Assembly (NCBI GenBank): GCA_902802905.1 | Contig: CADCNT010000009.1 | Coordinates: forward strand, 1 to 64,000 | Origin: an uncultured Erysipelotrichaceae bacterium | GTDB taxonomy: Bacteria; Bacillota_I; Bacilli_A; RFN20; CAG-826 | DNA: 64,000 nt | Direction of reading: 5' to 3' | Shown here: positions 3,360-49,385 of the stretch, piece after piece | Layout of the letters: the number at the start of each line of letters is the position of its first letter | How positions within the stretch are numbered: the stretch's first letter is position 1 | Notes under the pieces: model-generated | The model's database searches: none | Seen by the model: the letters and a program-made list of their open reading frames with translations, nothing else | Told to the model about the DNA's origin: nothing | Translations under genes and position numbers: made by a program

Positions 3360-5318
3360 TTATTTCCCCCTATTTTTTGGATTTAATTCTTTATATATAT
3401 TTAAGAGCTGTTTAGCCCACTTATCACTTGAGTATCTATTAACAGTCTTCTTTGCGTTAGCGATAACGTCTCTACAATCAGAGAACAATGCTCTTTCAAG
3501 TCTTTCCGTCCACTCGTTGAAGTCATCATAGATAAAAGCGTTTTCTCCATCGATGAAGATATTCTCAATCGCCTTATCTTTTTTCGCTAATATGAGAGTG
3601 CCACTCGCCGCGGCTTCAAAGTAGGTAAGACCTTGGGTTTCAAAGTTACTCGCGGTAACAAAAACATCAAATAAAGAATAGTAATATTTCAGCTTCGAAT
3701 TCTCAATTTCCCCAACAAAGACCACGTATTCTGCAATTCCTAACTTCTTTGCGGCCTTCTTTAAAACTGGTACTGCATCGCCAACTCCGACAATCACAAA
3801 GACAATATTTGGAATCTCATGTCTAATACGAGAAATAAAGTCTAAAGTCTCTAAGATGTTCTTCTCCATAGAGACTCTTCCAACATAACCTAAAACTTTT
3901 TTGTCTTTAAGATTATAGGCTTGACGGAGATTTTCCACTAAAGCTTTATCTTGCTTATCAGTTTCAAATCTTTCAATGTTGATTGGAGAAGGAATGATAC
4001 GAATATCTTTTTTGCTTTCCATATCGCTAGAAAGAATATCGTAGCTCTTATAAGAAGGAACAGTGATGATATCACTTTCTCTATATACTTGGTTGAATAA
4101 TAAGTTTTTCGCGGCTTTATAAGTAATATCACCAATGAGCTTACCAAACTTTTGTTCGTAATATAAATTCCACAAGGTGTGATAAGAATATAGTAACTTT
4201 ACTCCACTCATCTTTGATAACTTCAGAGCGATTTGACCCATCGAATATTCAGTGTGTAAATGGAGATAATCAAAGCCAAATAAACAGAGCATCTTCGCGT
4301 TTTTCATGAAGTTTAAGGTCTTCATCATTTGTAATTCTTTATAGCCTCTTAGGAAGGTCGCATAAGTGGCTTCTACTGGAATTAAATAACTATTAGGTAA
4401 TTCACGGTAATGAGTCTTTTTATTCCATAAAGCGACAACGTAGACTTCATAACCTAGCTTCTCTAATTCGTTTTGCAATAAGTCAGTAACCATCGCCACT
4501 CCATTGATGAATAATGGGCAAATATCCGTAAGCAGAGCCACTCTTTGTTTATTTGGTATATTCTCTAAATCATTCATAAAATGGATAAAGAATTGCTCGT
4601 TGAGAATAGCCTCTTCTGGAAGCGGTGAATTTTTATAAATGGAGCTACTACCAATTAATGGATTATAGCCAATCTTACGATAGGTTTCTTCTAAACGCTG
4701 AGAGAGAAGATCTTTGTAATATAAGTAATGCCCACAAGCAGGATAAGAAGAGAAACGAACATGAACATTTAAATGTCCTTTTTCATAAATCTTGTATCGG
4801 CTATCTAAAGGAACAACATTGTCACATTGCCCGTAATAAATAAAAGTAGGAATCTTTATTTTTTCAATTTCATCGGCGAGTTGATATTCATCTTTATATT
4901 GATTAATTGGAGACACTAATAAGAGTTTTTTTGGTTTGATATCTGGGTCGTTATGGAGTTTAGAAGCTAAATAAGCAGACACACCAAAACCCAATAAAGT
5001 AATTTCATCATCTTTAGCGATTAACTTATCTTCTTTCAAAGATACAACAATCTTTTTAAAGATGGAGTAATAATAAGAGAAGAATAATACTCGATCTTTT
5101 TTATTGAGCAATTTAACCACTATTAAACGATGCCCTTCGTTAATTACTGGGGCAAGTAAATCATAGAACTGTCTAAATCCATCGTAATGGAACAATGGAA
5201 AAATAATTACTTTACGAGATCTATCTTTTTTTAAATTATAGAAGCTTACCTCATAAGGATTATGATCTAATTCAACAGTTAAGGTTTTACATTTTAATTG
5301 GGGTCTTGGTTTAGCCAT
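3360..5318 (-). CDS. Alpha/beta-hydrolase-like domain fused to a GT4 glycosyltransferase (glucosyl-diacylglycerol synthase type)
   Basis: This 652-residue protein joins two enzymes. Residues 1-225 have the alpha/beta-hydrolase layout, with a beta strand and elbow (LLGFGVSAYLA, ~110-120), an acid strand (YYGQCDNVVP) and a His (CGHYLYY). The elbow has Gly where the nucleophile Ser belongs, so it is probably not a hydrolase. From about 258 a GT-B fold begins (RVALLTDICPLFINGVAMVT), with GYVGRVSMEKN and the E-x7-E motif ETQGLTYFEA typical of lipid alpha-glucosyltransferases such as A. laidlawii MGS. A likely role is glycolipid synthesis on the inner face of the membrane. No Shine-Dalgarno precedes the ATG; TAAAAT lies six bases upstream. 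Confidence 0.8.
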   Translation of the reverse strand: MAKPRPQLKCKTLTVELDHNPYEVSFYNLKKDRSRKVIIFPLFHYDGFRQFYDLLAPVINEGHRLIVVKLLNKKDRVLFFSYYYSIFKKIVVSLKEDKLIAKDDEITLLGFGVSAYLASKLHNDPDIKPKKLLLVSPINQYKDEYQLADEIEKIKIPTFIYYGQCDNVVPLDSRYKIYEKGHLNVHVRFSSYPACGHYLYYKDLLSQRLEETYRKIGYNPLIGSSSIYKNSPLPEEAILNEQFFIHFMNDLENIPNKQRVALLTDICPLFINGVAMVTDLLQNELEKLGYEVYVVALWNKKTHYRELPNSYLIPVEATYATFLRGYKELQMMKTLNFMKNAKMLCLFGFDYLHLHTEYSMGQIALKLSKMSGVKLLYSYHTLWNLYYEQKFGKLIGDITYKAAKNLLFNQVYRESDIITVPSYKSYDILSSDMESKKDIRIIPSPINIERFETDKQDKALVENLRQAYNLKDKKVLGYVGRVSMEKNILETLDFISRIRHEIPNIVFVIVGVGDAVPVLKKAAKKLGIAEYVVFVGEIENSKLKYYYSLFDVFVTASNFETQGLTYFEAAASGTLILAKKDKAIENIFIDGENAFIYDDFNEWTERLERALFSDCRDVIANAKKTVNRYSSDKWAKQLLNIYKELNPKNRGK

Positions 5319-5385
5319 ATTTTTATTTTAAAGGAATATTATCACTTAGTAATAATAAAAACACGTTTTTTCATGATTTTTAATA

Positions 5386-5416
5386 AACAAAAATCCCACC
5401 TTTTTCAGGCAGGATT
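5386..5416 (-). terminator. Intrinsic terminator of the ribosomal-protein operon
   Basis: Minus-strand stem AATCCTGCC/GGTGGGATT (two G-U pairs) around a TGAAAAA loop, then TTTTTG. It lies 23 bases beyond the L17 stop and closes the ~15-kb operon. Confidence 0.8.
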
Positions 5417-5438
5417 AGTTGTTTGTTTGAATGTTTAA

Positions 5439-5840
5439 TTAGTCAACCCAGGTGACTAAGACGATTGGAGCGTCATCACCGCGTCTATTTTCTAACTTTA
5501 ATCTACGGGTGTAACCGCCATTACGATCTTTGTATCTAGGACCGATTTCATTAAATAATTTGCTTAAAGCAGACACGCCTTTTTCATCGTCGATATTTCT
5601 AACGAATCTAGCAGCTTGTCTTTTAGCGTTCATCACATCTTCTTTTTTGGTTAAAGTGACTAATCTATCAGCTTCTTTAACGACGTCACGAGCGACGGCT
5701 TCTGTAACTTTTACAGATTCACGAATAATTAAATCAGTAACGACATTACGAAGCATGTTTTCATATTTGCTTTTGGTGTACGCGGCTTTAAATCTCACGC
5801 CGGTCTTACCATGTACATTTTTACGACCTTGTGCTGGCAT
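5439..5840 (-). CDS. rplQ: 50S ribosomal protein L17
   Basis: L17 of the large subunit, which binds 23S rRNA near the exit side. The family pattern is clear from the start: RKNVHGKTGVRFKAAY, LRNVVTDLIIRESVKVTEA and the C-terminal GGYTRRLKLENRRGDDAP. At 133 residues it is a little longer than the usual 120-127. It is the last gene of the operon, 19 bases after rpoA, with an AAGG-type Shine-Dalgarno. Confidence 0.97.
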   Translation of the reverse strand: MPAQGRKNVHGKTGVRFKAAYTKSKYENMLRNVVTDLIIRESVKVTEAVARDVVKEADRLVTLTKKEDVMNAKRQAARFVRNIDDEKGVSALSKLFNEIGPRYKDRNGGYTRRLKLENRRGDDAPIVLVTWVD

Positions 5841-5859
5841 AACTTATTTTCCTTTCTAA

Positions 5860-6825
5860 TTATTCAAAATCTTTGAATGATAAGCCGATACTGGCAAGTT
5901 TCTCTTTAATTTCTTTAAGGGATTTCTTACCTAAGTTCTTAACTTTCATCATTTCTTCTTCAGTCTTTTCAGTTAATTCTAAGACTGTGGAGATGGAAGC
6001 TCTCTTTAAGCAGTTATAGCTTCTAACGGATAAGTCGAGATCTTCAATAGTGATGTTCTCATATTTATTTTCTTCGACTTTTTCTTCTTCTTTTTCGATG
6101 TTAATGTCTTGAGTGACTTCCGCTAAGGAGAGGAATTTGTTGAGGTGTTCAATTAATAATTTAGCAGCCCAAACAACCGCTTCTTGTGGGAGAATGGAAC
6201 CATTGGTCCAAACTTCAAGAGTTAACTTATCGAATTTGGAATCGTGACCAACACGGGTGTTGTCAACGATGTAGTTGGCTTTTCTCACTGGAGAATAATT
6301 ACTATCAGTAGCAATCACACCAACTGGGAAATTAGGATGTAAGAGTTTATTTTGTTCACCAGTGAAATAGCCTCTACCATTTCTAGCGTGTAAAATGATA
6401 TGTAATTTACCACCTTCAGCAACGTGAGCGAGGACGACGTCTTTATTAACGACTTCTACGCCTGTTGGACAAACGATATCAGCACCGGTAACAACTTTAC
6501 TTTCTTCAACGTTAATTTCTAATCTTTTGTTTGCATCATCAGCTTCATCAATCTTTAAGACTAAATCTTTTAAATTGAGGATAATCGCGGTGACATCTTC
6601 TTCAACACCTTTTAAAGCGGAGAATTCGTGTTGTGCACCTTCGACTTCGATTGCATAGATGCTTGCTCCTGGTAAAGCACTTAATAAGACTCTTCTTAAA
6701 GCGTTACCAAGGGTTAAGCCAAAACCTCTTTCAAGTGGTTCAATGACGAAACGACCATAATTTTCATTGCCATCATAGTCGGCTTGGGTAATTCCAAATC
6801 TTTCAAATGGATTTGCAATTTTCAT
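5860..6825 (-). CDS. rpoA: DNA-directed RNA polymerase subunit alpha
   Basis: Alpha subunit, 321 residues. The N-terminal dimerisation domain includes [20 protein letters not shown] and [20 protein letters not shown] Glu/Lys-rich linker (around 240-258) leads to a helix-hairpin-helix C-terminal domain ([34 protein letters not shown]) that contacts UP elements and activators. It sits in the standard S11-alpha-L17 order. Confidence 0.98.
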
Positions 6826-6843
6826 GATAATTTCCTCCTAATA

Positions 6844-7227
6844 TTAACCACGTGGGCGTTTTGGTGGGCGGCAACCATTGTGTGGGATTGGGGTAGTATC
6901 AACGATACTTAAGATTTGTAAGCCCACAACCGCTAATGAACGGATAGCACCTTCTCTACCTGGACCTGGACCTTTGACATCAACGTCAACTTGTCTAATA
7001 CCTTGGTCATAGGCGCTTCTTCCTGCTGCTTCTGCTGCTTGTTGAGCGGCAAATGGAGTGGATTTTTTCGCTCCTTTGAAACCTAATGCACCAGCACTGC
7101 TCCAAGCGATGGCGTTACCATCGACGTCAGTAATGGTGATAATGGTGTTATTGAATGTGGAGTGAATGTGTGCCACGCCTCTAGTATATGAACGTTTGAC
7201 TTTCTTTTTACGAACTGCTTTTGCCAT
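6844..7227 (-). CDS. rpsK: 30S ribosomal protein S11
   Basis: Platform protein of the small subunit, 127 residues. Diagnostic sequence includes [35 protein letters not shown] and the C-terminal [18 protein letters not shown]. The basic N-terminus is normal. It lies between rpsM and rpoA with gaps of 18 bases. Confidence 0.98.
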
Positions 7228-7245
7228 GTTACATTACTCCTTTCT

Positions 7246-7620
7246 CTATTTAGGTGCGACTTTCTTATTCGCAATGGTCTTACGTGGACCTTTACGAGTA
7301 CGCGCATTTGTCTTGGTCTTTTGACCGCGGACTGGTAAACCTTTTTTATGTCTAACACCACGGTAGCAACCAATTTCAGTTAATCTTTTGATATTGAGGG
7401 CGACTTCTCTTCTTAAATCACCTTCGACTTTTAATTTAGCGACTTCAGCTCTGATTGCGTTCATTTGCGCATCGCTTAAGTCTTTCACTCTAATGGTTGG
7501 ATCAACTTTAGCGGCTTCGCAAATCTTTCTAGCGGTAGTTCTACCAATACCATAGATATAGGTAAGGGAGAAGGCCACTTGCTTGTCGTTAGGAATATCA
7601 ACACCAACGATACGTGCCAT
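7246..7620 (-). CDS. rpsM: 30S ribosomal protein S13
   Basis: Head protein of the small subunit contacting the P-site tRNA and bridge B1. It begins [13 protein letters not shown] and ends with the basic [16 protein letters not shown] tail. An in-frame TTG six bases upstream is possible, but the ATG at 7620 gives the canonical N-terminus and a better distance from GGAGG, so 124 residues are annotated. Confidence 0.97.
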
Positions 7621-7638
7621 ATTCAATTTTCCTCCTTA

Positions 7639-7752
7639 TTAACCTTGTCTTTGCTTGTGCTTTGGATCAGAGCAGATGACCATGACTTTGCCATGTCTTC
7701 TGATGACTCTGCACTTTGAGCAAATTGGTTTGACTGAAGGTCTGACTTTCAT
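7639..7752 (-). CDS. rpmJ: 50S ribosomal protein L36
   Basis: A 37-residue protein, [19 protein letters not shown] at the start. The zinc-binding set C11, C14, C27 and H32/33 is intact, so this is the zinc-containing (C+) form of L36. It sits in the expected place between infA and rpsM, with a strong AGGAGG upstream. Confidence 0.97.
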
Positions 7753-7784
7753 AATTTCTTTCCTCCTAATAGTTTTGACTAGGA

Positions 7785-8003
7785 CTATTTAAACCTAAAT
7801 GTTATTCGGCCCCGTGTTAAATCATAAGGCGAGATTTCTACGGTAACTTTATCACCTGGGAGAATGCGAATGTAATTCATTCGGATTTTACCAGAAACGG
7901 TAGCCAAGATTACCATGTCGTTTTCAAGTTTAACCCTAAACATTGCGTTAGGGAGTGTTTCCACTACGACCGCCTGTACTTCGATGACATCTGCTTTTGA
8001 CAT
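7785..8003 (-). CDS. infA: Translation initiation factor IF-1
   Basis: A single S1/OB-fold protein of 72 residues that occupies the ribosomal A site during initiation. Family sequence: [40 protein letters not shown] and [12 protein letters not shown]. It starts two bases after the map stop, so the genes are tightly coupled. Confidence 0.97.
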
Positions 8004-8005
8004 TC

Positions 8006-8767
8006 TTATTCTTCTCCTTCATACATGGTTATGATTTCATAACCGTTACTAGTAACTACTACAGTGTTTTCATAATGGGCTGTCAGTTTCTTATCTCTAG
8101 ATACTGCCGTCCAACCATCAGGTAACACGCGTAAGTCTTTTTTACCTTCCATGACCATTGGTTCGATACAAAGGGTCATACCAGGTCTAATTAGGACTCC
8201 AGTTCCTGCTTTTCCAAAGTTAGGAATTGAAGGGTCTTCGTGCATGTTTGCGCCAATGCCGTGTCCTGTATATTCTCTAGCAACGTTATAACCGTTACTT
8301 TCTACAAAGGTTTGTACTGCGTGAGATATATCCCCAATTGTATTTCCCACCACTACTTGTTTTAAGCCTTCAAAGAATGCATCTTTAGTGACTTTAACCA
8401 GTCTAGCGGCGTTTGGGGAGAGCTTGCCGACAGCGAATGTACGGCAAGCGTCCGCCATATAACCTTTGTAATTAGCCACTAAATCCACACTGACGATATC
8501 ACCTTCTTTAAGAAATTTACTCTTAGAAGGGATGCCGTGAACTAACTCCTCGTTAACAGACACACAGGCATTCGCAGGATAACCATAGTATCCCTTTTCT
8601 GCGGATGTACACCCGTTAGCGGCAAAAATTTGTTCAACAATAGAATCAACATCCATTGTGGTCATGCCTGGTCTAATCTTTTCGCCTATAACTTTGAAGG
8701 CTTGAGCGACCGCATAACCCGCTTTTTTCATTAATTCAATTTCACGTTCGGATTTAATGATAACCAT
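8006..8767 (-). CDS. map: Type I methionine aminopeptidase
   Basis: Removes the initiator Met from nascent proteins. At 253 residues without an N-terminal extension it is the type Ia form. The five metal ligands are present: the Asp pair in [20 protein letters not shown], His in [12 protein letters not shown], Glu in LCIEPMV and Glu in HYENTVVV. It lies two bases after adk in the adk-map-infA arrangement typical of Bacillota. Confidence 0.96.
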
Positions 8768-8769
8768 AA

Positions 8770-9420
8770 TTATTTGTTTAAGAAGTTTTTAACTTCATCG
8801 AAGAGTTGCTCTTTACCAACTAAAGAATCAAACGATTCTAATAAGCCTAATTTCTCATAGTAATCAAGAAGTGGCTTGGTTTCAGCAACATAGTGTTCCA
8901 ATCTCACTTTAAGAGCTTCTTCATTGTCGTCTTTTCTTTGATAGAGTGGACCGCCACATAAATCACAGACGCCTTCTGCTTTTGGCTTCATAGTGACCAC
9001 GTGATATGGAGCGCCACAATTCTTACAAACACGACGACCAGAGATTCTTCTCACAAGTTCTTCATTGTCGCAATCAAGATTAACGACAACTTCGATTGGT
9101 CGAGAGATTTGTTTAGCGATTTCTTCAAGAGCTTCAGCTTGAGGAAGAGTTCTTGGGAAACCGTCGAGTAAGAACCCGGCTTCACAATCTGGTTGACTTA
9201 ATCTCTCTTTAACAAGTCCGATTGTGACGTCATCAGGGACTAAATCGCCACGGTTAATATAACTAGCAGCGAGATTTCCGAGTTCTGTTTTGGCTTTTAT
9301 CGCATCACGGAACATATCTCCAGTGGAAATATGAACGAGATGTAAAGCTTCTTTTAATTGCTTAGCAAGGGTACCCTTGCCTGCACCAGGTGGACCCATT
9401 AATATAATGTTTTTCTTCAT
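8770..9420 (-). CDS. adk: Adenylate kinase, zinc-binding LID form
   Basis: Catalyses AMP + ATP = 2 ADP. The P-loop is GPPGAGKGT (residues ~9-17), and the AMP site includes STGDMFRDAI and LLDGFPRT. The long LID carries CKNCG and CDLCG, the four-Cys zinc knuckle of Gram-positive adenylate kinases. Length 216 is standard. It follows secY by five bases. Confidence 0.97.
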   Translation of the reverse strand: MKKNIILMGPPGAGKGTLAKQLKEALHLVHISTGDMFRDAIKAKTELGNLAASYINRGDLVPDDVTIGLVKERLSQPDCEAGFLLDGFPRTLPQAEALEEIAKQISRPIEVVVNLDCDNEELVRRISGRRVCKNCGAPYHVVTMKPKAEGVCDLCGGPLYQRKDDNEEALKVRLEHYVAETKPLLDYYEKLGLLESFDSLVGKEQLFDEVKNFLNK

Positions 9421-38885: not shown

Positions 38886-41800
38886 CTATTCGTAAACTAG
38901 TTCTGAATCAGGAACAATCTCTTCACATTCATCGCCAATGAGCGATTGTTTATCATAGAGAGCTTGAGATAGTTTATCAAGATTCTTTAAGTTCAAAGTC
39001 AATAATCTTATAGCTCTATCATATTGCTCTTTTAAGATTTTATTAACTTCGTTAAAGATTACTGGATTATCCATAGCTTTTTCAAAGTTAGGCATAACCG
39101 CCAAAGACTCGCTACCCATGCCAACACAAGTAACCATATATAAAGCGTTATTTGACGCGCTTTCAATGTCACTAGAGATGCCAACATTAATTCCTTTTTC
39201 TTCACCAGCGTGAATTACTTCTGCTGCACGTCCACCGAAAGAGACACAAATTCTATTTAATATATATTGCTTTGTGTAGTCTTCGTTAATATCGGAGATT
39301 TCAGACAAAGTGTATCCGCCATAATTCCCACGAGCGACGATTGTAACAAATGGAGGTTTCTTGCCAAACAATCTATGGAGCAAATAATGGCCCATTTCAT
39401 GATAAGAAGTATTCATAATAGTTTCTTCGGTTGATTTTTTAGCAGAAACATCACCAGATTTATATAGGTCGAGAGAATCAGTTAATAACTTATCTGTTAA
39501 TTCTTTTCCTTGAGCGAAATGAATTGCAAAATCAAGAATATTATTTAGTTCAAGATAATCCGCAAAATAACATCTAGCAGCGAAGTTATTAATCACTGTT
39601 TCTGAAATTTTTTCAATGTGGTGTTTTGCAAAATATTTCTTAATATAAACAACTTTATCCGCCACTGTAGGCTCTTCAAGTAAGATAAATCTTAGTCCAA
39701 GACCTTTTAAAGCTTTGGCAACAGGTGCTTCAGGTGTACACTCTGCTACTAATAAAATTGGATGAGCCACATCACCTAAAGAATAGTCGATTTCATTTCT
39801 TAATAATGGCAATAAAGCAATATTAGCCGCTGATTCACCTGGAGTGATGAGATAGTTAATCTCTTCAATATGCAAAATGGCAGGCGCGTTTCTTCTGGCT
39901 TTTTTGAAAGCTTCTTTGAAACGATCAGCTATTTGATCTGTGTTACTACATTCCATTATTACTTTCTTGCCACTTAATTTAACTAAGTTACAACCAACTT
40001 CTTTGGCAAGTGCTTTAACTAAGCTTGTTTTACCTAAGTTATGGTAATAGGAACGAAGCAAGATTCCTTTAGGAATAGCAAATCCTTCTTGGACAAACTT
40101 GTGAGGATTACTTAAATATCTTCCATATTTCATCAAGACTTCTTTTGCGATGCTATTTCCAACAACATCATCAAAGCCGTTAATATTTCTTAATTCATAA
40201 TCATCATCTAAGTCACTAGAAAGCACTCTACTTAATACGAAATTGTCTAATGTTACCTTAACATCAGTGGTGCCGGATTTGTTTTGCACTAACTGTTGAA
40301 TTGGGTTACATTCAAGTCTAAGTCTTTCTTTTCTTAAGAATTTGATATCTACATGTAAATCCCAGTTCACGATTGCCTTAGATAAAACAGAGATAAAAGT
40401 TTCTGGATGTTCTCTTTCTAAATAAATAACATCTTTTGCGCCTTTAAGTAATAGAGTTTGATAAGCAGTTTGAGGAACTTGATATTCTTTAATGCTCAAT
40501 AAGTATAAAGGTAATTGATGATAGTATTTGTTAAGTGTATCAAAGATGTCATTACCTAAAGAGTCTACATCCTCTAAATCTAAAACAGAGGTTTTGCCAC
40601 GAATGCTATATAAAGGATCAAGAACGACAACATCGATACCGTTTTTAATCTTGGTAAGGACTTCATTCTTACTTCTAGCAAAGACAAAATTCACATTATC
40701 AACTTTAAGGGTTTTAATAAACTCACTGCTATCTTTGTCAGCAACCACTAAAACATCGAGTGGTTCAACATCGAATAGCTTCTTAACTTTTTCGTCTTTC
40801 TTTTTACTAACAAGACCAATATGAATGTTTTTCACAATGCTTAAGAAAGTATGTCCACTTTCAGGATCAACATTCTTTGCTAAATAAGAAACTTGTTCGT
40901 CTAAGACATTTTCAGAATATTTCTTTAAGACATTGAGATTAGTTTCTTCAGGGTTGCAATATAAGACAAATCTAGCGAGTTCATCATAATTAGCGTCCAC
41001 AAAAATGCCAGTTTTATTAGTGAAGTTTTTAGCGTGCTTTTCAATATGAGCCGCAATGATTTGATGAATAGAGTAATAGTCTAATGCATTGAGCATTGCG
41101 ACATTTTCTTTTGCCAACATATCTAAAAGATATGGGTTATATCTTGGGTTACCACTCTTAGCGTATTCTTCCTTAAGAGATCTAATAATTTCTTCTGTGC
41201 TGAAAGAAGAGAAGTTAGATAATCCACTATCAAGGTAGATTTTCTTTCCACCGGTTGTAGTGAAAAAGACAATAGTTTTAGAGAAATCTACACCGCTATA
41301 TTTGCCGGTGTATAACATATTGAAAACTAATGGATAGAATTCACCATCAAAGTCTTCAAATTCATTAAAGATAATAATTCCACGAGGATTTTTATTTACA
41401 AAGGAGAATAAACGTCCAATTTGTCTGCCATTAACATAATCTGGAGCGTTAAAAGAAATTACAGGCATATTACTAATGCGTGCAAACTCTTCACAAATCG
41501 AAGTTTTTCCAGAACTGGCTGGACCACAGAATAAATAAGTTTGAGCGGGCTTTGTACTATTTTCGCTCACAAATGTTTGGTTTTTAACATAACCGTTAAT
41601 TAGAACATCAACAACATGTCTTTGACCAATAATGACTTTATTTAGTTCTTCTCTAATCTTATTGGCTTTATCTAAGTCGTTGCCTAAAACACCCTTGCCA
41701 AAACCTAAGGATGTGAAGCTAAAAGTAGGATTGTAGTTATAGATTGATAAGAACGCTCCTTCATGATCCGCAATACCTAATTGCTCATATAAGAAGTCAT

Positions 41801-42002
41801 AGAATCTAGCGGTGTCTATTGGGTTATCTTTATCATTAACTTCAATAACAACGTTATATTCATCACGACTGACAATCTTAACTTCCATGCCTTCTAAGGC
41901 TTTATTAAGAATATCTAAAGCAAAGTCAAAAAAGTCATTGCCGGTTTCTTCTTTAAAACTAGAAATAAATGGAGCGATTGCATTTAATTGAATTCTTTTC
42001 AT
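38886..42002 (-). CDS. Soluble tandem-AAA protein with receiver-like middle and FtsH-type M41 metalloprotease
   Basis: 1038 residues, no membrane segment. An unrecognised N-domain (1-~115) is followed by AAA module 1: Clp-like entry VIIGQRHVVDVLI, Walker A GPASSGKTS (160-168), Walker B IIIFNE (209-214, Asn for Asp). A receiver-like stretch (~412-550: LDVLVVADKD, DVVVLDPLY) lacks clear phosphorylation chemistry. Module 2 is FtsH-like (NGFDDVVGNSI, ~608) with a degenerate P-loop (SYYHNLGKTS, 651-660) and Walker B ILHIEE. The M41 peptidase is intact: HEMGH (H868, E869, H872), GGRAAE and the third ligand Asp945 (GISSDIESA). ATP use is therefore likely in module 1 and uncertain in module 2. Real FtsH is membrane-anchored with one AAA module. 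The ATG at 42002 follows AAGGAG; a TTG at 42023 is rejected. Confidence 0.85.
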   Translation of the reverse strand: MKRIQLNAIAPFISSFKEETGNDFFDFALDILNKALEGMEVKIVSRDEYNVVIEVNDKDNPIDTARFYDFLYEQLGIADHEGAFLSIYNYNPTFSFTSLGFGKGVLGNDLDKANKIREELNKVIIGQRHVVDVLINGYVKNQTFVSENSTKPAQTYLFCGPASSGKTSICEEFARISNMPVISFNAPDYVNGRQIGRLFSFVNKNPRGIIIFNEFEDFDGEFYPLVFNMLYTGKYSGVDFSKTIVFFTTTGGKKIYLDSGLSNFSSFSTEEIIRSLKEEYAKSGNPRYNPYLLDMLAKENVAMLNALDYYSIHQIIAAHIEKHAKNFTNKTGIFVDANYDELARFVLYCNPEETNLNVLKKYSENVLDEQVSYLAKNVDPESGHTFLSIVKNIHIGLVSKKKDEKVKKLFDVEPLDVLVVADKDSSEFIKTLKVDNVNFVFARSKNEVLTKIKNGIDVVVLDPLYSIRGKTSVLDLEDVDSLGNDIFDTLNKYYHQLPLYLLSIKEYQVPQTAYQTLLLKGAKDVIYLEREHPETFISVLSKAIVNWDLHVDIKFLRKERLRLECNPIQQLVQNKSGTTDVKVTLDNFVLSRVLSSDLDDDYELRNINGFDDVVGNSIAKEVLMKYGRYLSNPHKFVQEGFAIPKGILLRSYYHNLGKTSLVKALAKEVGCNLVKLSGKKVIMECSNTDQIADRFKEAFKKARRNAPAILHIEEINYLITPGESAANIALLPLLRNEIDYSLGDVAHPILLVAECTPEAPVAKALKGLGLRFILLEEPTVADKVVYIKKYFAKHHIEKISETVINNFAARCYFADYLELNNILDFAIHFAQGKELTDKLLTDSLDLYKSGDVSAKKSTEETIMNTSYHEMGHYLLHRLFGKKPPFVTIVARGNYGGYTLSEISDINEDYTKQYILNRICVSFGGRAAEVIHAGEEKGINVGISSDIESASNNALYMVTCVGMGSESLAVMPNFEKAMDNPVIFNEVNKILKEQYDRAIRLLTLNLKNLDKLSQALYDKQSLIGDECEEIVPDSELVYE

Positions 42003-42012
42003 AACGCACTCC

Positions 42013-42444
42013 TTACTTGGCAATAATGGTTAATGGCCTAAAGAATGTATTGACTCTATCGGAATAAATACAGTTCATAATTTTATCAAAAGCAGCAACA
42101 CCGCTATCTTCATCAGCAACATGGAATCTATTGCTGGAAACATAGAGGAATAACCTTCCACGATTGTCTTCTCTCATGTATGCTTTGAATTCGTCGACAT
42201 TCTGGTTAAAGTCATTCATCAATAAAAGTGTGTCTTCATTTCCTCTAACTTGATTGAGCTTATACATCACTTCTAGTGAATCGGAATAAAGATAAACATC
42301 AAGTAGAGCACCTTGGAAATTTGGCAAATTAATTTCCGCATATATGTTTGCGCCATCACCTTTAAATTCATCGTTTTCTTTCCACGATAAACCCTTCGGT
42401 CCTGTAGCAGCAATTAAGCGTGCTTTAAAACTGTCAATATTCAT
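42013..42444 (-). CDS. Small protein of YbjN/secretion-chaperone-like appearance, partner of the AAA protease
   Basis: 143 residues, no signal or membrane segment. Alternating beta strands and helices (GALLDVYLYSDSLEVMYKLN, LLLMNDFNQNV, GRLFLYVSSNRFHV) look like the T3SS-chaperone/YbjN fold, a weak visual match. The stop is 10 bases before the AAA-protease ATG and carries the Shine-Dalgarno for it, so the two are one operon. It could be an adaptor or regulator of that protease; this is inference. A TATAAT at 42474-42469 gives a ~18-base leader starting with GGGAG. Confidence 0.6.
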   Translation of the reverse strand: MNIDSFKARLIAATGPKGLSWKENDEFKGDGANIYAEINLPNFQGALLDVYLYSDSLEVMYKLNQVRGNEDTLLLMNDFNQNVDEFKAYMREDNRGRLFLYVSSNRFHVADEDSGVAAFDKIMNCIYSDRVNTFFRPLTIIAK

Positions 42445-42453
42445 ATAAATAAA

Positions 42454-42474
42454 AATCTCCCTGAGATTATTATA
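42454..42474 (-). promoter_or_regulatory. Promoter of the protease operon with overlapping inverted repeat
   Basis: TATAAT at 42474-42469. Directly after it, AATCTC-AGG-GAGATT (42468-42454) forms an inverted repeat that includes the predicted start point and could be an operator rather than an RNA hairpin. Confidence 0.45.
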
Positions 42475-42523
42475 ACAAATCTATGCATATGCGAAATAAA
42501 AAGTTGAGTTTTAAACCCAACTT

Positions 42524-43744
42524 TTATTTTTGTTTTTTCTTATGTTCTTTTTTGTTACGATACATATCTTCATCCGACAGCACAATTGCGTTTTCGAATG
42601 TAGTTTTATTGGAGTTCAATGTAAAGCTTCCGATCGATAATTCAAGAGCAAATCTTTTATTTTTAAATAGAGGAACTGCCTTTTCGATTTTCTCCACAAT
42701 CTTCTTAGCTTGCACTTTTGTGGTATGAGGAACAATCGCTAAGAATTCATCTCCGCCCATTCTAAATAGAGTAGAGCGTTTTGGTAACCCCCTCTTGAGA
42801 GCGTCTCTTGCGTAGTTAATATATTGGTCACCAGCAGTATGACCAAATTTATCATTGATATCTTTTAAGCCGTCACAGTCAGCGGAGATAATAGTGACAG
42901 GAAACTCTAAATCTTTGTTATCAGAACGAATGAACTCATCAAAATAAACACGATTATATAATCCGGTTAATGCATCAGTAATGGATTTGATACGAAGTTC
43001 TTGCTTAAGCAATTCAGAATCGGTGACATTATTGATGATAGCGATAATACCATATACTTCATCATTTTCATCTTTAAGAGGTTCTTTAATAATTTGGAGA
43101 TAATCGGTTCCTTCCTCATCTTCCTCTTTGATGATATATCTTTTGCCTTTTCCAGTTTCAATAACTTCAAGGTCCGATTGGCGAGCGATAGCGGCGTTCT
43201 TCTTATCTTTACGAATATCGAAATCAGTTAAACCTCTAATAGATTGATCTTTATAAACATGATGCCAGTGTTGTGAACAGAAAGCATATCTTCCTTCTCT
43301 ATCCTTAAGATAGAGAAGTGAAGGTAGCACTTTTAATTTATCAGAGAAATCATCAAAGCTTGTTGAGTTAGCAGCTTTAATCGCATTGCTAATTCTTCTT
43401 AAAATCAGTCTTTCTGAGTCATTAGAGAAAAGAACATCCACGACAGGAGAATTTAAAAATAAGACATCATTATCAATATTCTCAGTATCAGTCAAAATCA
43501 AGACTGGTAAGTTAAACATGAAGTTATTTCTGCTTTTAATATATTCGAGAAGATAACCAATATCTTGTTTTGTTGAAGGAGTGTCAATAATTAAACATGC
43601 AAGATGATCAAATTCACGTTGGACAAAAGAGTCGGCCTCCATCATGTCGTGACCTTCAATAATCTCGTATTCTCTACTAATTTTTTCTCTAATTGCTTCC
43701 ATTCTTGGAGAATTTGGACCGCAAACAATAAAAATCTTTTCCAT
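42524..43744 (-). CDS. Diguanylate cyclase: receiver-like - PAS - GGDEF
   Basis: 406 residues, no membrane segment. Residues 1-~125 look like a receiver fold (KIFIVCGPNSPRMEAIREKI, ACLIIDTPS), though a full phospho-acceptor set is not clear. A PAS-like domain (~140-245, LPSLLYLKDREGRYAFCSQ) follows, then a GGDEF domain (~255-400) with an intact MGGDEF, so it should make cyclic di-GMP. No RxxD inhibitory site is seen five residues before GGDEF. It overlaps the HD-GYP gene stop (TAATG at 43744), giving a synthesis/breakdown pair in one operon. Confidence 0.88.
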   Translation of the reverse strand: MEKIFIVCGPNSPRMEAIREKISREYEIIEGHDMMEADSFVQREFDHLACLIIDTPSTKQDIGYLLEYIKSRNNFMFNLPVLILTDTENIDNDVLFLNSPVVDVLFSNDSERLILRRISNAIKAANSTSFDDFSDKLKVLPSLLYLKDREGRYAFCSQHWHHVYKDQSIRGLTDFDIRKDKKNAAIARQSDLEVIETGKGKRYIIKEEDEEGTDYLQIIKEPLKDENDEVYGIIAIINNVTDSELLKQELRIKSITDALTGLYNRVYFDEFIRSDNKDLEFPVTIISADCDGLKDINDKFGHTAGDQYINYARDALKRGLPKRSTLFRMGGDEFLAIVPHTTKVQAKKIVEKIEKAVPLFKNKRFALELSIGSFTLNSNKTTFENAIVLSDEDMYRNKKEHKKKQK

Positions 43745-45063
43745 TATTTATTATCCTTTTCCACAATGGTTGCGTTAATCTTGGCAAAGATATCTTTATG
43801 ATGTAAAAATACTTCCGCTAAATATGGATCGAAGTGGTTTCCTGCATCTTTTTCGATAATTTCGAATGCTTTTTCAACAGGGACAGGTTCCTTATAACAA
43901 CGCTTAGAAACAAGGGCATCAAAGACATCCGCAAACGCCATAATGCGAGCGCATAACGGGATCTCTTCGCCCTTCAAACCTTTTGGATAACCTGTGCCAT
44001 CCCACTTCTCGTGATGATACATAGCGATGTCACTAGCAAAAGAGACATATTCCTCATCAGAAATATCGGCTAAAATTTGTCTAACAACTTGGCCACCAAA
44101 TTCGGCGTGCTTTTTAATTTCTTCAAATTCCTCTGGTGTTAATTTTCCAGGTTTTCTTAGAAGAGTATCACTAATTAAAATCTTGCCAACATCGTGCATA
44201 GGCGCAAGTGTATAAAGCAAGTCAATGAAGTGATCACTAATTTGGTCGGTGTAAACTAAATCCTCTCTAGCACACTTTGCTAATGCTTTAGCGTATGCAC
44301 TAGTACGTGCAACATGTAAACCAGTATCGATGTCACGGCTTTCAATTAAGTTAGCAAGACCAGAAATGATATGAACTTGCATATTATTGATTTCTTTTTG
44401 CTTTCTCATTAATTCAGCACGTGTATCTTGCTGCACTATATCGTTATAGTAAACATAGCAAAGAGCGGAAGTAATACCGACTGCGCAATAGGCAATATGG
44501 ATTTGATATAAAGACATAGGGATGATGCCGCCTGCTAAAACAACAAGCACCATGATAATTGTGCCGATATCTCTAGCTTTAAATCTAATTCCAACAAGCA
44601 CTAATGTGCCGATGATATAAAGCATGCTACCGATATATGTAATGGTATAAATGATGAAGTACGGTCCACGATGATATAAGCCAGTTTCATCAAAATAGAA
44701 GATGTATCCATTAGGAGCGCAACTAATTTGAATAATCAAACAAATGCCTAAGCTAATTAAAGCGGCTTTAATTTGATGTTTAAAACCTAACGCACCAGCA
44801 AAAAGCATCGCGAAACTTGGAGCAATAGAGAACTGTAAGACAGTTAATATTGTAATCGCGATATTAAATCTTGGATCATGATATCCACAGTGGATAGCTA
44901 GCTCCGCCAAAGCACAGAATGTAATTGTGGCAAAGGTAACAATAAACCACTTCTTTTGTTTTTTATTGAAACCAGGATATGACAAAACATGAATGCTTAA
45001 TGCAACCATCATCAAAGTAAGAATTAATGTCATGAAGTAGTAATAAAGAAGGTTAGGATCCAT
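43744..45063 (-). CDS. Membrane HD-GYP phosphodiesterase
   Basis: 439 residues. About seven membrane helices (1-~205), a short coiled linker, then an HD-GYP domain. Metal and signature residues are intact: GLHVARTSAYAKAL, MHDVGKI, HHEKWDGTGYP and ARIMAFADVFDAL. HD-GYP proteins hydrolyse cyclic di-GMP to GMP. The N-terminal seven-helix part may sense a ligand or the membrane. A TATAAG lies eight bases before the ATG and no Shine-Dalgarno is present. Confidence 0.88.
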   Translation of the reverse strand: MDPNLLYYYFMTLILTLMMVALSIHVLSYPGFNKKQKKWFIVTFATITFCALAELAIHCGYHDPRFNIAITILTVLQFSIAPSFAMLFAGALGFKHQIKAALISLGICLIIQISCAPNGYIFYFDETGLYHRGPYFIIYTITYIGSMLYIIGTLVLVGIRFKARDIGTIIMVLVVLAGGIIPMSLYQIHIAYCAVGITSALCYVYYNDIVQQDTRAELMRKQKEINNMQVHIISGLANLIESRDIDTGLHVARTSAYAKALAKCAREDLVYTDQISDHFIDLLYTLAPMHDVGKILISDTLLRKPGKLTPEEFEEIKKHAEFGGQVVRQILADISDEEYVSFASDIAMYHHEKWDGTGYPKGLKGEEIPLCARIMAFADVFDALVSKRCYKEPVPVEKAFEIIEKDAGNHFDPYLAEVFLHHKDIFAKINATIVEKDNK

Positions 45064-45163
45064 AACGTTTACTTATAAATATGATACAAAAAATTTTTAT
45101 TTAAAAAAATAATAATTTTATAGATGGATATAATATGAACACTATAATTCGATAGTAAAAAAG

Positions 45164-45193
45164 CGTAAAAGAAAATCGTGGATAACCACGATT
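45164..45193 (-). terminator. Terminator after the XRE regulator gene
   Basis: Perfect minus-strand stem AATCGTGG/CCACGATT (45193-45174) with a TTAT loop, followed by TTCTTTT. It overlaps the stop codon by two bases. Confidence 0.85.
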
Positions 45194-45971
45194 ATTCTCT
45201 TGCTTCTTCGGCTTGTTTTTCGTCTTCATCATCTTCTTCGTCATCATCATCCTTCTTGCCAAGGATTTTGTTGATACTTCCAAAGAAGGCATGGTAGATA
45301 GGAATCGCTAAGAAGACGACCCACATTGGATGCCACAAGTTAGCGGACATGCCTGGGATAAACATACATACAAAGAAGAATACAAAGCAAGACAAGAACG
45401 CCATATTGAATTTGTTTGGATTTTTCTTATAAATGCATCTTGCGATTGAACACAGGATACCCGGAACAAATAAGAAAATCCAACCATTGACCCACATGTT
45501 AAGTAAAGCACCTAATAATACATATAGGACAATTGTACATAAGAACAAGAATCCTTCAATCACATCAATAATGATTGAACCCTTATCACGAACTGGGTGT
45601 CTAATTTCTTTTTTATGTCCGTTCTTATCTACGCATGTAACGCAACCTTTTTCAATATGTACTGAGCTACCATCGTCATCTGTAATATGAATGCTGTCAT
45701 TGCCTTTATCGATCTTAATGTTCTTTTCATCTTTCTTGACTTGTTCTTCTACGATGGTGTCAACATCTTCATCAGTGGAAAGAAGTTCATCAAGAGATAC
45801 ACCATATAGTTTTGCTAAACAAATAAGATTATCTGTATCTGGGCTTGCTTCCGCGCGTTCCCATTTACTTACTGCTTGTCTTGATAAGCCTAACTTATCT
45901 GCAAGTTCTTCTTGTGATAGTCCGTGTTTCTTTCTAAGTTTGATTAATCTATCAGCGATTTCGATTGTCAT
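45192..45971 (-). CDS. XRE-family regulator with membrane domain
   Basis: 259 residues from the ATG at 45971, which follows GGAGGA. Residues 3-60 are a Cro/CI helix-turn-helix (LRKKHGLSQEELADKLGLSR, QAVSKWERAEASPDTDNLIC). A linker rich in Asp and Lys follows, then several hydrophobic segments (~135-235) and a strongly acidic tail (DDDDEEDDEDE). Membrane-anchored XRE regulators of this type are frequent in Bacillota and usually unassigned. It stands between the two cyclic-di-GMP operons and might link membrane state to their expression. Confidence 0.8.
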   Translation of the reverse strand: MTIEIADRLIKLRKKHGLSQEELADKLGLSRQAVSKWERAEASPDTDNLICLAKLYGVSLDELLSTDEDVDTIVEEQVKKDEKNIKIDKGNDSIHITDDDGSSVHIEKGCVTCVDKNGHKKEIRHPVRDKGSIIIDVIEGFLFLCTIVLYVLLGALLNMWVNGWIFLFVPGILCSIARCIYKKNPNKFNMAFLSCFVFFFVCMFIPGMSANLWHPMWVVFLAIPIYHAFFGSINKILGKKDDDDEEDDEDEKQAEEARE

Positions 45972-46017
45972 AAATCTGTCCTCCGTTTTTGACTGACAAC
46001 AATTTATCATTATGCAC

Positions 46018-46090
46018 TCGGTTGCATCTACATATTCTAGTTAGAATTTACGCAACTTTTGGTTGCAAAATCAATTTTACGCTGGTTGCG
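46018..46090. promoter_or_regulatory. Repeated GGTTGC motifs upstream of the XRE gene (candidate operator)
   Basis: GGTTGC occurs at 46020, 46061 and 46084. Two copies sit in inverted repeats, GCAAC-TTTTG-GTTGC (46052-46066) and TACGC/GCGTA (46078-46092). They surround the probable minus-strand promoter, as expected for autoregulation. Confidence 0.4.
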
Positions 46091-46176
46091 TATCGTTTTT
46101 TAGTCTTTTTTTATCTTTTTAAATAGAAAAGAAAAACAACAACCTTTCAGTCATTGTTTTACTCATTTTAAGCTCC

Positions 46177-47883
46177 TTAGCAATCAACTTGAGAGTAATA
46201 TTCTTCTAGTTTTGGTCTAGCTCTCACATAGTAGATTTCCAGATTTTTATCAAAGTGTTTACCCATGCCTTCCATAATGATTTGGTTAGCTTGTTCAAAA
46301 GACATTTTGTCCTTATAAACACGTTTAGAGACCAAAGCATCATAGACATCAGCGATTGCCATAATACGGGCTTCGATTGGAATCTCATCACCAAGAAGAT
46401 GATGTGGATAGCCACTACCATCCATACGTTCATGATGATAATGAGCAACATTGACGGCAATCCTCATAAATTCTTTATCATCTGTACCTTCTAAAATTTT
46501 AGCAACGATTCTTGCACCTTGCTCCGCATGGGTCTTCATTATCTCAAATTCTTCAGGTGTAAATTTTCCTGGTTTTCTTAAAATCGCATCATCAACTGCG
46601 ATCTTGCCTAAATCATGCATTGGAGCAGCTTTGATTAAATCGTTACAAAATTCATCGCTGAGATTGAATTTATTATCTTTTTTGATTTCATCAACGAGTA
46701 TACGAATGCAGTCACTAGTTCTTTTAATATGGCCACCAGTAGAATTGTCTCTACTTTCAACCATTGTTGCCATACCCATAACTAGTTTCTCTTGCATTTG
46801 AATAATGTGTTCTGTCTTTTGGGCAACCTCATCTTCAAGCTGAGTATTATATTTTTTAATGAGATTAATATATTGTTGATTAGCGGTGTCATCACTAATT
46901 AAGAATTGATAACCGCGTTTAATTCCACTAATTAATAAACGATTAGCCTTAACCAAATAGATTTTGTCATTTCTTTCAAAATAGAATTGTTCGTTATTAT
47001 TGTCTTTTTCGTATTCTTTAACCCAAGATAAAAGATTGTTTTCTAACCAACCATTATCTTTAATGTGATGGTCAATTCTTAGTGTTTGTAACTCAGGAAT
47101 CATTTTTCTAGCAGTCTCATTACTGCCTAAATATCTAATCTTGTTATCAAAAGAGATGAAACCAGTATCACCTTTTTCAACAAGCGAATCAGTAACTGAA
47201 TCAGAAGCATCATATAAACGTAATCTAGAGGCGATGATTAAATAAATAATCATTCCTAAGTTATAAGTTGCTGGGAGCGATTCAAATTCATGAGTAATTA
47301 GTCTGCCTCCAAAGAAACCAATAACAGAAATAGAAATAGATATTACAATTAAAACCAAAACACTTTTTGGAACTTGTTTCTTTTTAAAGAAGCTATAAAT
47401 AACCACTCCTACTGTAGCTAAATAAAACGCCCCAACCATGATGTAGAAGATGGTGTGCATAAAGCCATAATGCTTATTAGTGATATAAGCCGCTCCATAA
47501 GCATAGGCTAAGTCCGGCATGCCTTGATAAAAGATATCACTATGACCAATGCTTAATGTAGTAGCGTACACTCCAGCAGAAAAAGCAACAATAATCACTC
47601 TTACCCAAGAAGGAAGTTTAACTCCACAAATATTGAAAATTAAGAACATCGAGCTTAATAAAACACAACATCCACCAATATAAGTTAATCTAAGAGCAAT
47701 GAGTGCTTCACCTATAGTGTTGGCGCTGCCCATTAAAACAAACCCCAAGTTAATAACTGGGATTAAAATGGTCATAATCGTTAAGTTAGCGTCAAAGTGT
47801 TTATGAAAAATGTATGCGTATATCACTACCATGAGAAGCGAAATTGCAAACATTAAGTAATAAAAGATTAAAGCGCCGCCCAT
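46177..47883 (-). CDS. Membrane HD-GYP phosphodiesterase with 7TM and PAS-like sensor
   Basis: 568 residues. An N-terminal seven-helix sensor of the histidine-kinase 7TM type (1-~220) is followed by a PAS-like region (~235-330: GFISFDNKIRYLGSNETARK), a coiled linker and an HD-GYP domain (~360-560). GGHIKRTSDCIRILV, MHDLGKI, HHERMDGSGYP and ARIMAIADVYDAL are all intact. It lies five bases after the GGDEF gene at 47889, forming the second synthesis/breakdown pair, in the opposite gene order to the first. Confidence 0.9.
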   Translation of the reverse strand: MGGALIFYYLMFAISLLMVVIYAYIFHKHFDANLTIMTILIPVINLGFVLMGSANTIGEALIALRLTYIGGCCVLLSSMFLIFNICGVKLPSWVRVIIVAFSAGVYATTLSIGHSDIFYQGMPDLAYAYGAAYITNKHYGFMHTIFYIMVGAFYLATVGVVIYSFFKKKQVPKSVLVLIVISISISVIGFFGGRLITHEFESLPATYNLGMIIYLIIASRLRLYDASDSVTDSLVEKGDTGFISFDNKIRYLGSNETARKMIPELQTLRIDHHIKDNGWLENNLLSWVKEYEKDNNNEQFYFERNDKIYLVKANRLLISGIKRGYQFLISDDTANQQYINLIKKYNTQLEDEVAQKTEHIIQMQEKLVMGMATMVESRDNSTGGHIKRTSDCIRILVDEIKKDNKFNLSDEFCNDLIKAAPMHDLGKIAVDDAILRKPGKFTPEEFEIMKTHAEQGARIVAKILEGTDDKEFMRIAVNVAHYHHERMDGSGYPHHLLGDEIPIEARIMAIADVYDALVSKRVYKDKMSFEQANQIIMEGMGKHFDKNLEIYYVRARPKLEEYYSQVDC

Positions 47884-47888
47884 AAGGT

Positions 47889-49385
47889 TTATCTTGATTT
47901 AAAGATGGTAAATCCACACTTACCACCGAACTTAGTTTCATACAAAGCGTGGTCAGCGTTATTGAATAATTCTTCTGCGTTTTCAGCATCACGACCATAT
48001 GCTCCACCAGCAGAAATAGATGTAGGTGGTAAGTCTCTAGCAAATTTAGTCAATTCACGATTGATGTTATTAATTCTTTCGCCCACTGTGCCAACCATAT
48101 GGTCATCAACATTTGGCATGATAACAGCAAATTCATCCCCACCAATACGACAGACAAAATCTTCATCACGGAAGTGAGAACAAATAGAATCTGTGATTTT
48201 TATTAATGATTTATCACCGACAGCGTGTCCGTATTGGTCATTGATTTGTTTAAAGGAGTCGCCATCAATTAACACTAAGAACACTTTGCTTAATACCACT
48301 TGCTCCATAAGAGCGTCAAATCCAGCACGATTAAAAATCTTAGTTAAAGCATCATGTTTAGCGTTATATGTTTCCACCATTAATTTTCTTTGTTCTTCAG
48401 AGTTATCACGAATGCTTAAGTAGAAACCAACTACTCTTTCTTTATGATCGGCAACCGCGTGTTTTTCAATAGCATAGCTATTTAATCCTTCACCTTCACC
48501 AGTAGTAACAGTCTTAGTCCACTCATCCGCACTTTTACCAAAGTCACCAATCTTATCAGTTAAGATAGATGTAACTTTATAAAGTTCATTTGGTTCAATA
48601 TTTAATAATTCATATGCCTTGTTATTAGCCCAAATGCATCTTCCATTCTTGTCAAAGAATATTAATGCTTCAGACATTTTAGAAGCAATTGCCGCTAACA
48701 TTCTATCCATAAGTCGAAGTGGACGATAGTAAATTGCAAGAAGGAAAACTAAAACACCAAATACGGCAAAGCCAATCATTGAGTAGTCGATTTGAGTTCT
48801 ATTAATAATGGAGTAAGTTTGCCATCCACCAAAGGCAACCATAGCCAATAAAATGACTAAGTATTTTTCAGAGTAGACCTTTGGAGTAATAATAGTTTTT
48901 ACCACAAAAACCACCAGAACCCCGCCTAAAATCACATAGTCGACCACACGGTGAATGGTTTGTCCGACAAGTGCAGCAAACGAATAATAATAGTTACCAT
49001 CCACATAGAACGGTTCAAGTAAGACGAATGCATGGTGAGTAAAGATATTGACCAAAAGTTGGATCATATCTAACGTAAGAATGATATATAAAGTTAACTT
49101 AATTGCTTTCTTATGCCATGTAAGACTGCAATAGTCAAAAGTAAATCTCACTAATGCCATCATCACAAGGTCCATACCTAAAAAATAGATATAACAACCT
49201 GCTAATGATAATTGTTCAACTGGAGAAGCAATGATACATAAATTGCCAATAACCGGAGGCATTAACGCCACCATGAGTAAAGCAACCGATTTACCAATTG
49301 GTTTACGTGATCTAGAAGAAATAAATGCGCAAACTCCAAGGATTGCAACAAGTAATGCAAAAACGATTGATAAAGCTATTCTCAT
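47889..49385 (-). CDS. Membrane diguanylate cyclase: 7TM - PAS - GGDEF
   Basis: 498 residues. Seven or eight membrane helices (1-~225), a PAS domain (~235-330: ALIFFDKNGRCIWANNKAYE) and a GGDEF domain (~335-498) with intact IGGDEF and GYxxGD-like HAVGDKSLIK. It should synthesise cyclic di-GMP in response to a membrane or ligand signal. It heads the operon; TATAAA lies six bases and TATACT fourteen bases upstream of the ATG, and no Shine-Dalgarno is present. Confidence 0.9.
   Translation of the reverse strand: MRIALSIVFALLVAILGVCAFISSRSRKPIGKSVALLMVALMPPVIGNLCIIASPVEQLSLAGCYIYFLGMDLVMMALVRFTFDYCSLTWHKKAIKLTLYIILTLDMIQLLVNIFTHHAFVLLEPFYVDGNYYYSFAALVGQTIHRVVDYVILGGVLVVFVVKTIITPKVYSEKYLVILLAMVAFGGWQTYSIINRTQIDYSMIGFAVFGVLVFLLAIYYRPLRLMDRMLAAIASKMSEALIFFDKNGRCIWANNKAYELLNIEPNELYKVTSILTDKIGDFGKSADEWTKTVTTGEGEGLNSYAIEKHAVADHKERVVGFYLSIRDNSEEQRKLMVETYNAKHDALTKIFNRAGFDALMEQVVLSKVFLVLIDGDSFKQINDQYGHAVGDKSLIKITDSICSHFRDEDFVCRIGGDEFAVIMPNVDDHMVGTVGERINNINRELTKFARDLPPTSISAGGAYGRDAENAEELFNNADHALYETKFGGKCGFTIFKSR

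Follow-up and report, generated by a model that had tools for sequence, protein, structure and literature searches.

The window, by which we mean the whole 64,000-nucleotide stretch of DNA analyzed, carries on its minus strand, at positions 38886 to 42002, the gene of a soluble tandem-AAA M41 protease; all features located below by window position lie on this strand. The gene was delimited by translation, by Pfam and NCBIfam matches, and by comparison with a full-length ortholog in a second genome (G194). Translation from the ATG start gives a protein of 1038 amino acids, in which an N-domain is followed by a Clp-type AAA module (D1), a receiver-like domain, an FtsH-type AAA module (D2), and a peptidase M41 domain. 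Pfam matched Peptidase_M41 at residues 862-1029 (E 1e-22) and AAA at residues 656-739 (E 4e-18). The FtsH arrangement of an FtsH-type AAA module followed by M41, with HExxH and an Asp as third ligand, is present, and the best solved relatives of the C-terminal half are YME1 (6az0) and FtsH (7zbh). The FtsH equivalog model TIGR01241 scored 118.7 bits, below its cut-off of 600, and no whole-protein family in NCBIfam or Pfam matched the domain order. The 19-residue Kyte-Doolittle maximum over the 1038 residues was 1.18, indicating that the protein has no transmembrane segment, and no N-terminal membrane anchors were found by hydropathy across the whole chain. An AlphaFold2 model of the full-length protein, built on the alignment of the two orthologs, reached a pLDDT of 40; it was unusable and left out of the fold search, and the loop positions and ring arrangement given below are predictions from sequence.

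Besides this protease, the host genome encodes a normal FtsH (C7) and one more AAA-M41 protein, which is soluble and 508 residues long (C12). Short soluble single-AAA proteins with M41, of 433 to 508 amino acids and without obvious anchors, were observed at G000:C12:26297-26806 (L100:6286-7812) and at loci L034, L035, and L036. By eye, the neighbors of the genes at L035 and L036 include a WYL-like regulator and nuclease-like proteins, and PADLOC IetA models gave weak to moderate matches to the proteins of L034, L035, and L036. The PADLOC similarity was confined to IetA-type AAA and does not amount to a defense assignment.

The catalytic end of the protein is intact. The M41 domain (residues 853-1032; 38907 to 39446) scored 81.3 bits against a Pfam cut-off of 29.9, and a motif check located the HEMGH zinc-binding and catalytic motif at residues 868-872 (39387 to 39401) and the third zinc ligand, Asp945, at 39168 to 39170. 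The ligands H868, H872, and D945 and the catalytic E869 are present, and the equivalent residues are complete in all three tandem proteins found, namely, the window protein, the G194 ortholog, and a 941-residue relative in genome G053. With 51% identity to the ortholog, M41 is the best-conserved part, every other part being 30 to 40% identical. This conservation, together with the complete site, implies that catalysis is what selection keeps; selection thus appears to maintain the peptidase while the motor erodes. At the other end, the N-terminal domain (residues 1-105; 41688 to 42002) is 30% identical in the ortholog, is missing from the 941-residue relative, and belongs to no known family. 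Profile comparison of this domain with YbjN, receiver, and Clp profiles gave no signal, and a relationship to any of the three was rejected.

D1 with its lid spans residues 106-400 (40803 to 41687), as defined by Clp-model matches, alignments, and a motif check. It was recognized through the ClpA, ClpV, and ClpB models over residues 108-367 (NCBIfam, 3e-10 to 2e-7), with AAA_2 of Pfam under its cut-off. A motif check placed its Walker A motif, GPASSGKT, at residues 160-167 (41502 to 41525), and the motif alignment showed it to be kept in all three tandem proteins. In both orthologs, that is, the window and G194 proteins, Walker B reads NE or DD, the stretch that would hold the canonical Clp pore loop 1 (GYVG) is shortened by ~17 residues and pore loop 2 by 6, and the alignment shows neither the Arg finger nor the sensor-2 Arg. 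Lacking the GYVG loop, the Arg finger, and sensor 2, D1 resembles Clp at the level of module similarity only. The shortened loop contains Tyr-Val-Asn, with Tyr-Thr-Asn as its counterpart in the ortholog, and could still face the pore and play a pore-loop role; judging from the alignments, the loss of all gripping is likely but not certain.

D2 with its lid (residues 607-852; 39447 to 40184) was delimited by Pfam, alignment, and a motif check and is degenerate. It does not retain the set that marks a working FtsH motor (Walker A and B, the FVG pore loop, sensor 1, and two Arg fingers). The first Gly of the P-loop is lost in the window protein, where the motif check located the remnant SYYHNLGKT at residues 651-659 (40026 to 40052). 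In both orthologs, the FVG pore loop is replaced (CSN; KQRD), the sensor-1 Asn is Cys, and one Arg finger is missing, whereas the Walker loss differs between them, affecting Walker A in the window protein and Walker B in the ortholog (QN for DE). This degenerate motor pattern is known from the two orthologs only. The 941-residue relative retains nearly all motor motifs, with Walker A and B, sensor 1, and the Arg fingers kept in both modules, and serves as an internal control for the motif alignments. Because this relative keeps the motifs, the motor losses go with the YbjN-paired form of the protease.

Between the two AAA modules lies the receiver-like domain (residues 412-547; 40362 to 40769). 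When a profile built from all three tandem proteins was compared by hhalign with 16 genuine receivers, the score was 37.4, the probability 86%, and the E value 5.5e-6; the best of 100 column-shuffled controls scored 20.4, and AAA, M41, and Clp profiles gave probabilities below 0.4%. As read from the sequence, strands and helices alternate in this region as they do in a receiver, and Pfam Response_reg did not match the protease. In the alignment, Asp462 (40617 to 40619) occupies the phospho-acceptor position and is kept, with Asp422, in both orthologs; Ser503 is present, and the conserved Lys is absent. The absence of this Lys makes phosphorylation of the domain doubtful.

These data uphold most of the architecture given in the original prediction: a 1038-residue protein at these coordinates without a membrane segment, a Clp-like first AAA module, a receiver-like middle, and a complete M41 site. 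The predicted second, FtsH-like module with a damaged P-loop was also found, but the damage is wider than proposed, with many motifs lost from both D1 and D2.

Upstream of the protease gene, at 42013 to 42444, lies a gene for a 143-amino-acid protein with the YbjN, or class I type III chaperone, fold, assigned from an AlphaFold2 model, PDB matches, and the ortholog. The model, built from two sequences, had a pLDDT of 84.7, and its best PDB matches were Escherichia coli YbjN, AmyR, and DR1245, with class I type III secretion chaperones also matched. Foldseek placed YbjN first (E 3.6e-3, probability 1.0), and VIA gave Z scores of 11.6 for DR1245 and 10.6 for YbjN (each with an rmsd of 3.0 over 128 aligned residues). 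Pfam YbjN (PF10722) gave no direct match above its cut-off on the partner; an intermediate relative in genome G062, found at E 9e-10, scored 23.2 against the cut-off of 22, and the pair of partner proteins matched the YbjN family by profile at E 1e-18. The partners from the window and G194 are about 30 to 31% identical to each other and at most 25% identical to other family members. According to one proposal, YbjN relatives bind unfolded chains in the manner of class I chaperones (PMC5398634). In G062, the YbjN-family gene (Pfam 23.2 bits; locus L083 [C19] 5056-8865, minus strand) stands beside a gene for a 498-amino-acid AAA ATPase and also adjoins a gene for a coiled-coil/membrane protein. 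A YbjN-AAA neighborhood therefore occurs more than once, in the window pair and in G062.

The protease ATG lies 10 bases past the stop codon of the 143-residue gene, with a Shine-Dalgarno sequence between the two. On the other side of the small gene, an extended -10-like element, TGTTATAAT (42470 to 42480), was read directly, by consensus only, ~30 bases 5' of its ATG, and a terminator-like hairpin with a T-run follows the GGDEF gene at 42495 to 42529 (MFE -11.4 kcal/mol, z -6.7, with 0 of 200 shuffles as stable); a consensus terminator scan did not flag this hairpin. From these elements, we conclude that the protease and its partner are a two-gene unit with its own predicted terminator-promoter boundary. 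The composition of the pair (GC 0.32 to 0.35) is like that of its surroundings and gives no sign of recent foreign origin. An operon shared with the upstream GGDEF and HD-GYP genes was rejected, given the intervening hairpin and T-run and the other neighbors in the ortholog. Those upstream genes form a cyclic di-GMP turnover cluster at 42524 to 49385, in which the GGDEF protein (42524 to 43744) has an N-terminal receiver-like stretch matched by OKR_DC_1_N, as well as a PAS match.

Among 279 genomes of the order, the only full-length ortholog was that of G194, the metagenome-assembled genome RGIG3315 of a goat-reticulum member of the Bacilli (contig JAFSNY010000045.1). It has 1039 residues compared with 1038, an identical domain order, and 37% identity over residues 1-1037, and a 143-residue partner gene ends 11 bases upstream of it. 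The neighbors differ, being housekeeping genes in G194 and GGDEF and HD-GYP genes in the window. Since the same linkage and spacing recur in unrelated surroundings, the pair is a conserved unit. The full-length protease is accompanied by the partner in both known cases, but the reverse does not hold: partner-family matches occurred in 22 of the 279 genomes, mostly without a tandem protease, which 3 genomes have.

The 941-residue protein of G053 is the third with the same domain order; it lacks the N-domain and the YbjN gene, and a DUF1292-like small gene stands where the YbjN gene would be. At this locus (L032 [C12] 3524-7747), the protease is flanked by the DUF1292-like gene (99 amino acids, weak Pfam match) and by a 367-amino-acid gene whose product combines acidic repeats with a winged helix of FtsK-gamma-like type (weak Pfam match). 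By its gene content, the locus is a putative, differently partnered version of the protease system. In a D2-M41 tree, the three tandem proteins group together (96/88) on very long branches, and this grouping was not relied on.

Searches with the receiver region and its flanks, which are free of Clp background, covered 392 phylum-level and 395 class-level genomes and found no further tandem proteases; because these sets overlap with each other and with that of the order, the distinct genomes covered number fewer than about 1,000, and the rarity of the tandem protease rests on species-representative genomes. A contig scan with narrow peptide patterns, in which absence is weak evidence, returned the known ortholog only. 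Viral contigs contained Clp-like AAA fragments only and no whole-protein relative, and tblastn against phages and plasmids found FtsH or separate clpK and ftsH genes, with no record covering 80% of the query.

The original prediction of a YbjN-like 143-residue gene is borne out by the fold matches and by the intermediate relative above the Pfam cut-off, and the predicted linkage holds in the one full-length ortholog, the 941-residue relative being without a YbjN gene. The proposed shared operon stands for the two genes 10 bases apart but seems not to extend to the GGDEF and HD-GYP genes upstream. The suggestion of a dedicated protease with a small partner is supported by the linked pair (10 and 11 bases) and the chaperone- or adaptor-type fold, whereas control through the receiver-like region is not established, as its Lys is absent.

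The reading we favor, with a probability of roughly 0.45, is that the pair encodes an M41 counterpart of LonC, in which a peptidase would sit on a nucleotide-binding, non-pulling AAA scaffold and be supplied by a chaperone-fold partner. On this view, the products of the two genes would form a single small proteolytic system. The protease would be a soluble zinc peptidase of the M41 type that presumably assembles into a hexameric ring, as its FtsH relatives do, and neither of its AAA layers would work any longer as a pulling motor. The intact P-loop of D1 probably still allows nucleotide binding, presumably without pulling; D2 would be a structural layer, a pseudo-ATPase lying between D1 and the chamber of the peptidase, and the receiver-like domain a spacer or docking domain between the rings. 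Like LonC, such an enzyme would not unfold folded proteins but would cleave polypeptides that are already unfolded or extended. Type III-type chaperones bind extended segments of their clients. The YbjN-fold partner may choose clients, hold them, and pass them to the protease, or it may gate the protease through the unique N-terminal domain. In favor of this reading are the complete and best-conserved M41 site, the motor losses in both orthologs, the linkage of the pair, and the fold of the partner; against it stand the good P-loop of D1, the Tyr-Val-Asn in its shortened loop, the restriction of the degenerate pattern to two orthologs, and the YbjN-like genes that most of their host genomes carry with no such protease.

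A rather unlikely alternative is a working ATP-driven protease with D1 as the motor, D2 as a passive ring, the YbjN-fold protein as an adaptor, and the receiver-like domain switched by phosphorylation. The Walker A motif of D1 in all three proteins, a Tyr-Val-Asn that possibly faces the pore, the receiver similarity supported by hhalign, and the retention of Asp462 and Asp422 in both orthologs would suit such a machine, and RssB (PMC7226468) is a receiver-fold adaptor of an AAA protease. However, neither ortholog has an Arg finger, sensor 2, or a normal Walker B in its D1, the Lys expected of a receiver is absent, and the operon of the pair contains no histidine kinase gene. The lack of motor parts in both AAA modules argues against an ordinary ATP-driven unfoldase-protease. 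Less probable again is a regulatory or inhibitory pair, in which the YbjN-fold protein stabilizes the protease or keeps it inactive, as a holdase or anti-activator, until released by stress. YbjN proteins have been argued to act by binding and blocking or stabilizing partners (PMC5398634), and the one-to-one gene linkage is consistent with this role, but the sequences do not separate it from delivery. It is very improbable that a former FtsH-like machine is simply losing function in two lineages, its AAA layers without a present role: many motif losses and a very patchy distribution would fit, but two frames of 1038 and 1039 residues have stayed open, free of stops and frameshifts, at an identity of 37%, the peptidase is 51% identical, and most losses are common to both orthologs, a degree of preservation over such divergence that a gene in decay would not show.

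In the current understanding, an AAA protease couples a motor to a peptidase. If the LonC-like reading is true, an M41 enzyme that sheds its motor and keeps its peptidase would reveal roles of AAA rings besides pulling, it would parallel LonC in an unrelated peptidase family, and the widespread, functionally obscure YbjN family would gain a testable molecular partner. More tentatively, this may be the first M41 protease whose AAA layers are all non-pulling and which is fed by a co-encoded protein of the YbjN/type III chaperone fold, ATP-gated rather than ATP-driven, giving the YbjN family a concrete role in degradation.

LonC (MtaLonC), the closest precedent in its principle of operation, likewise has a peptidase fused to an AAA-like layer without motor motifs, in which nucleotide binding may remain; with six nucleotides bound per hexamer, it shows no ATPase activity and can degrade only substrates that are unfolded (PMC3391209). 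In contrast, the Lon peptidase is unrelated to the zinc M41 family, and the window protease, read from its sequence, has two AAA modules and a partner gene. With FtsH, the i-AAA, and the m-AAA proteases (TIGR01241, MEROPS M41), it shares an FtsH-type AAA directly before M41, HExxH, and a distal Asp; unlike them, it has no membrane anchors, a degenerate D2, and an extra Clp-type AAA, receiver-like domain, and N-domain in front. D1 aligns with the C-terminal (second) AAA module of ClpA, ClpB, and ClpC, including the lid, but lacks canonical pore loops, the Arg finger, and sensor 2; the window protease also differs in having its own fused peptidase and hence needs no ClpP partner. The small protein shares fold, length, and, by profile through intermediates, family membership with YbjN, AmyR, and DR1245. 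No described member of this family is reported to be co-encoded with an AAA protease, while DR1245 has peptidase-gene neighbors and was suggested, on neighborhood grounds alone, to work with these in protein degradation (PMC3575483). MoxR-vWA ternary systems with FtsH also have tandem AAA domains of which one is inactive (PMC7159879). Their dead module is N-terminal and both are FtsH-type, whereas the window protease has a Clp-type D1, shows the greater decay in D2, and carries M41; no MoxR or vWA genes were seen beside it. The plasmid-borne clpK-ftsH heat-resistance loci likewise encode a Clp ATPase and an FtsH protease together, but as separate genes, whereas the window gene joins the two kinds of module in one soluble chain.
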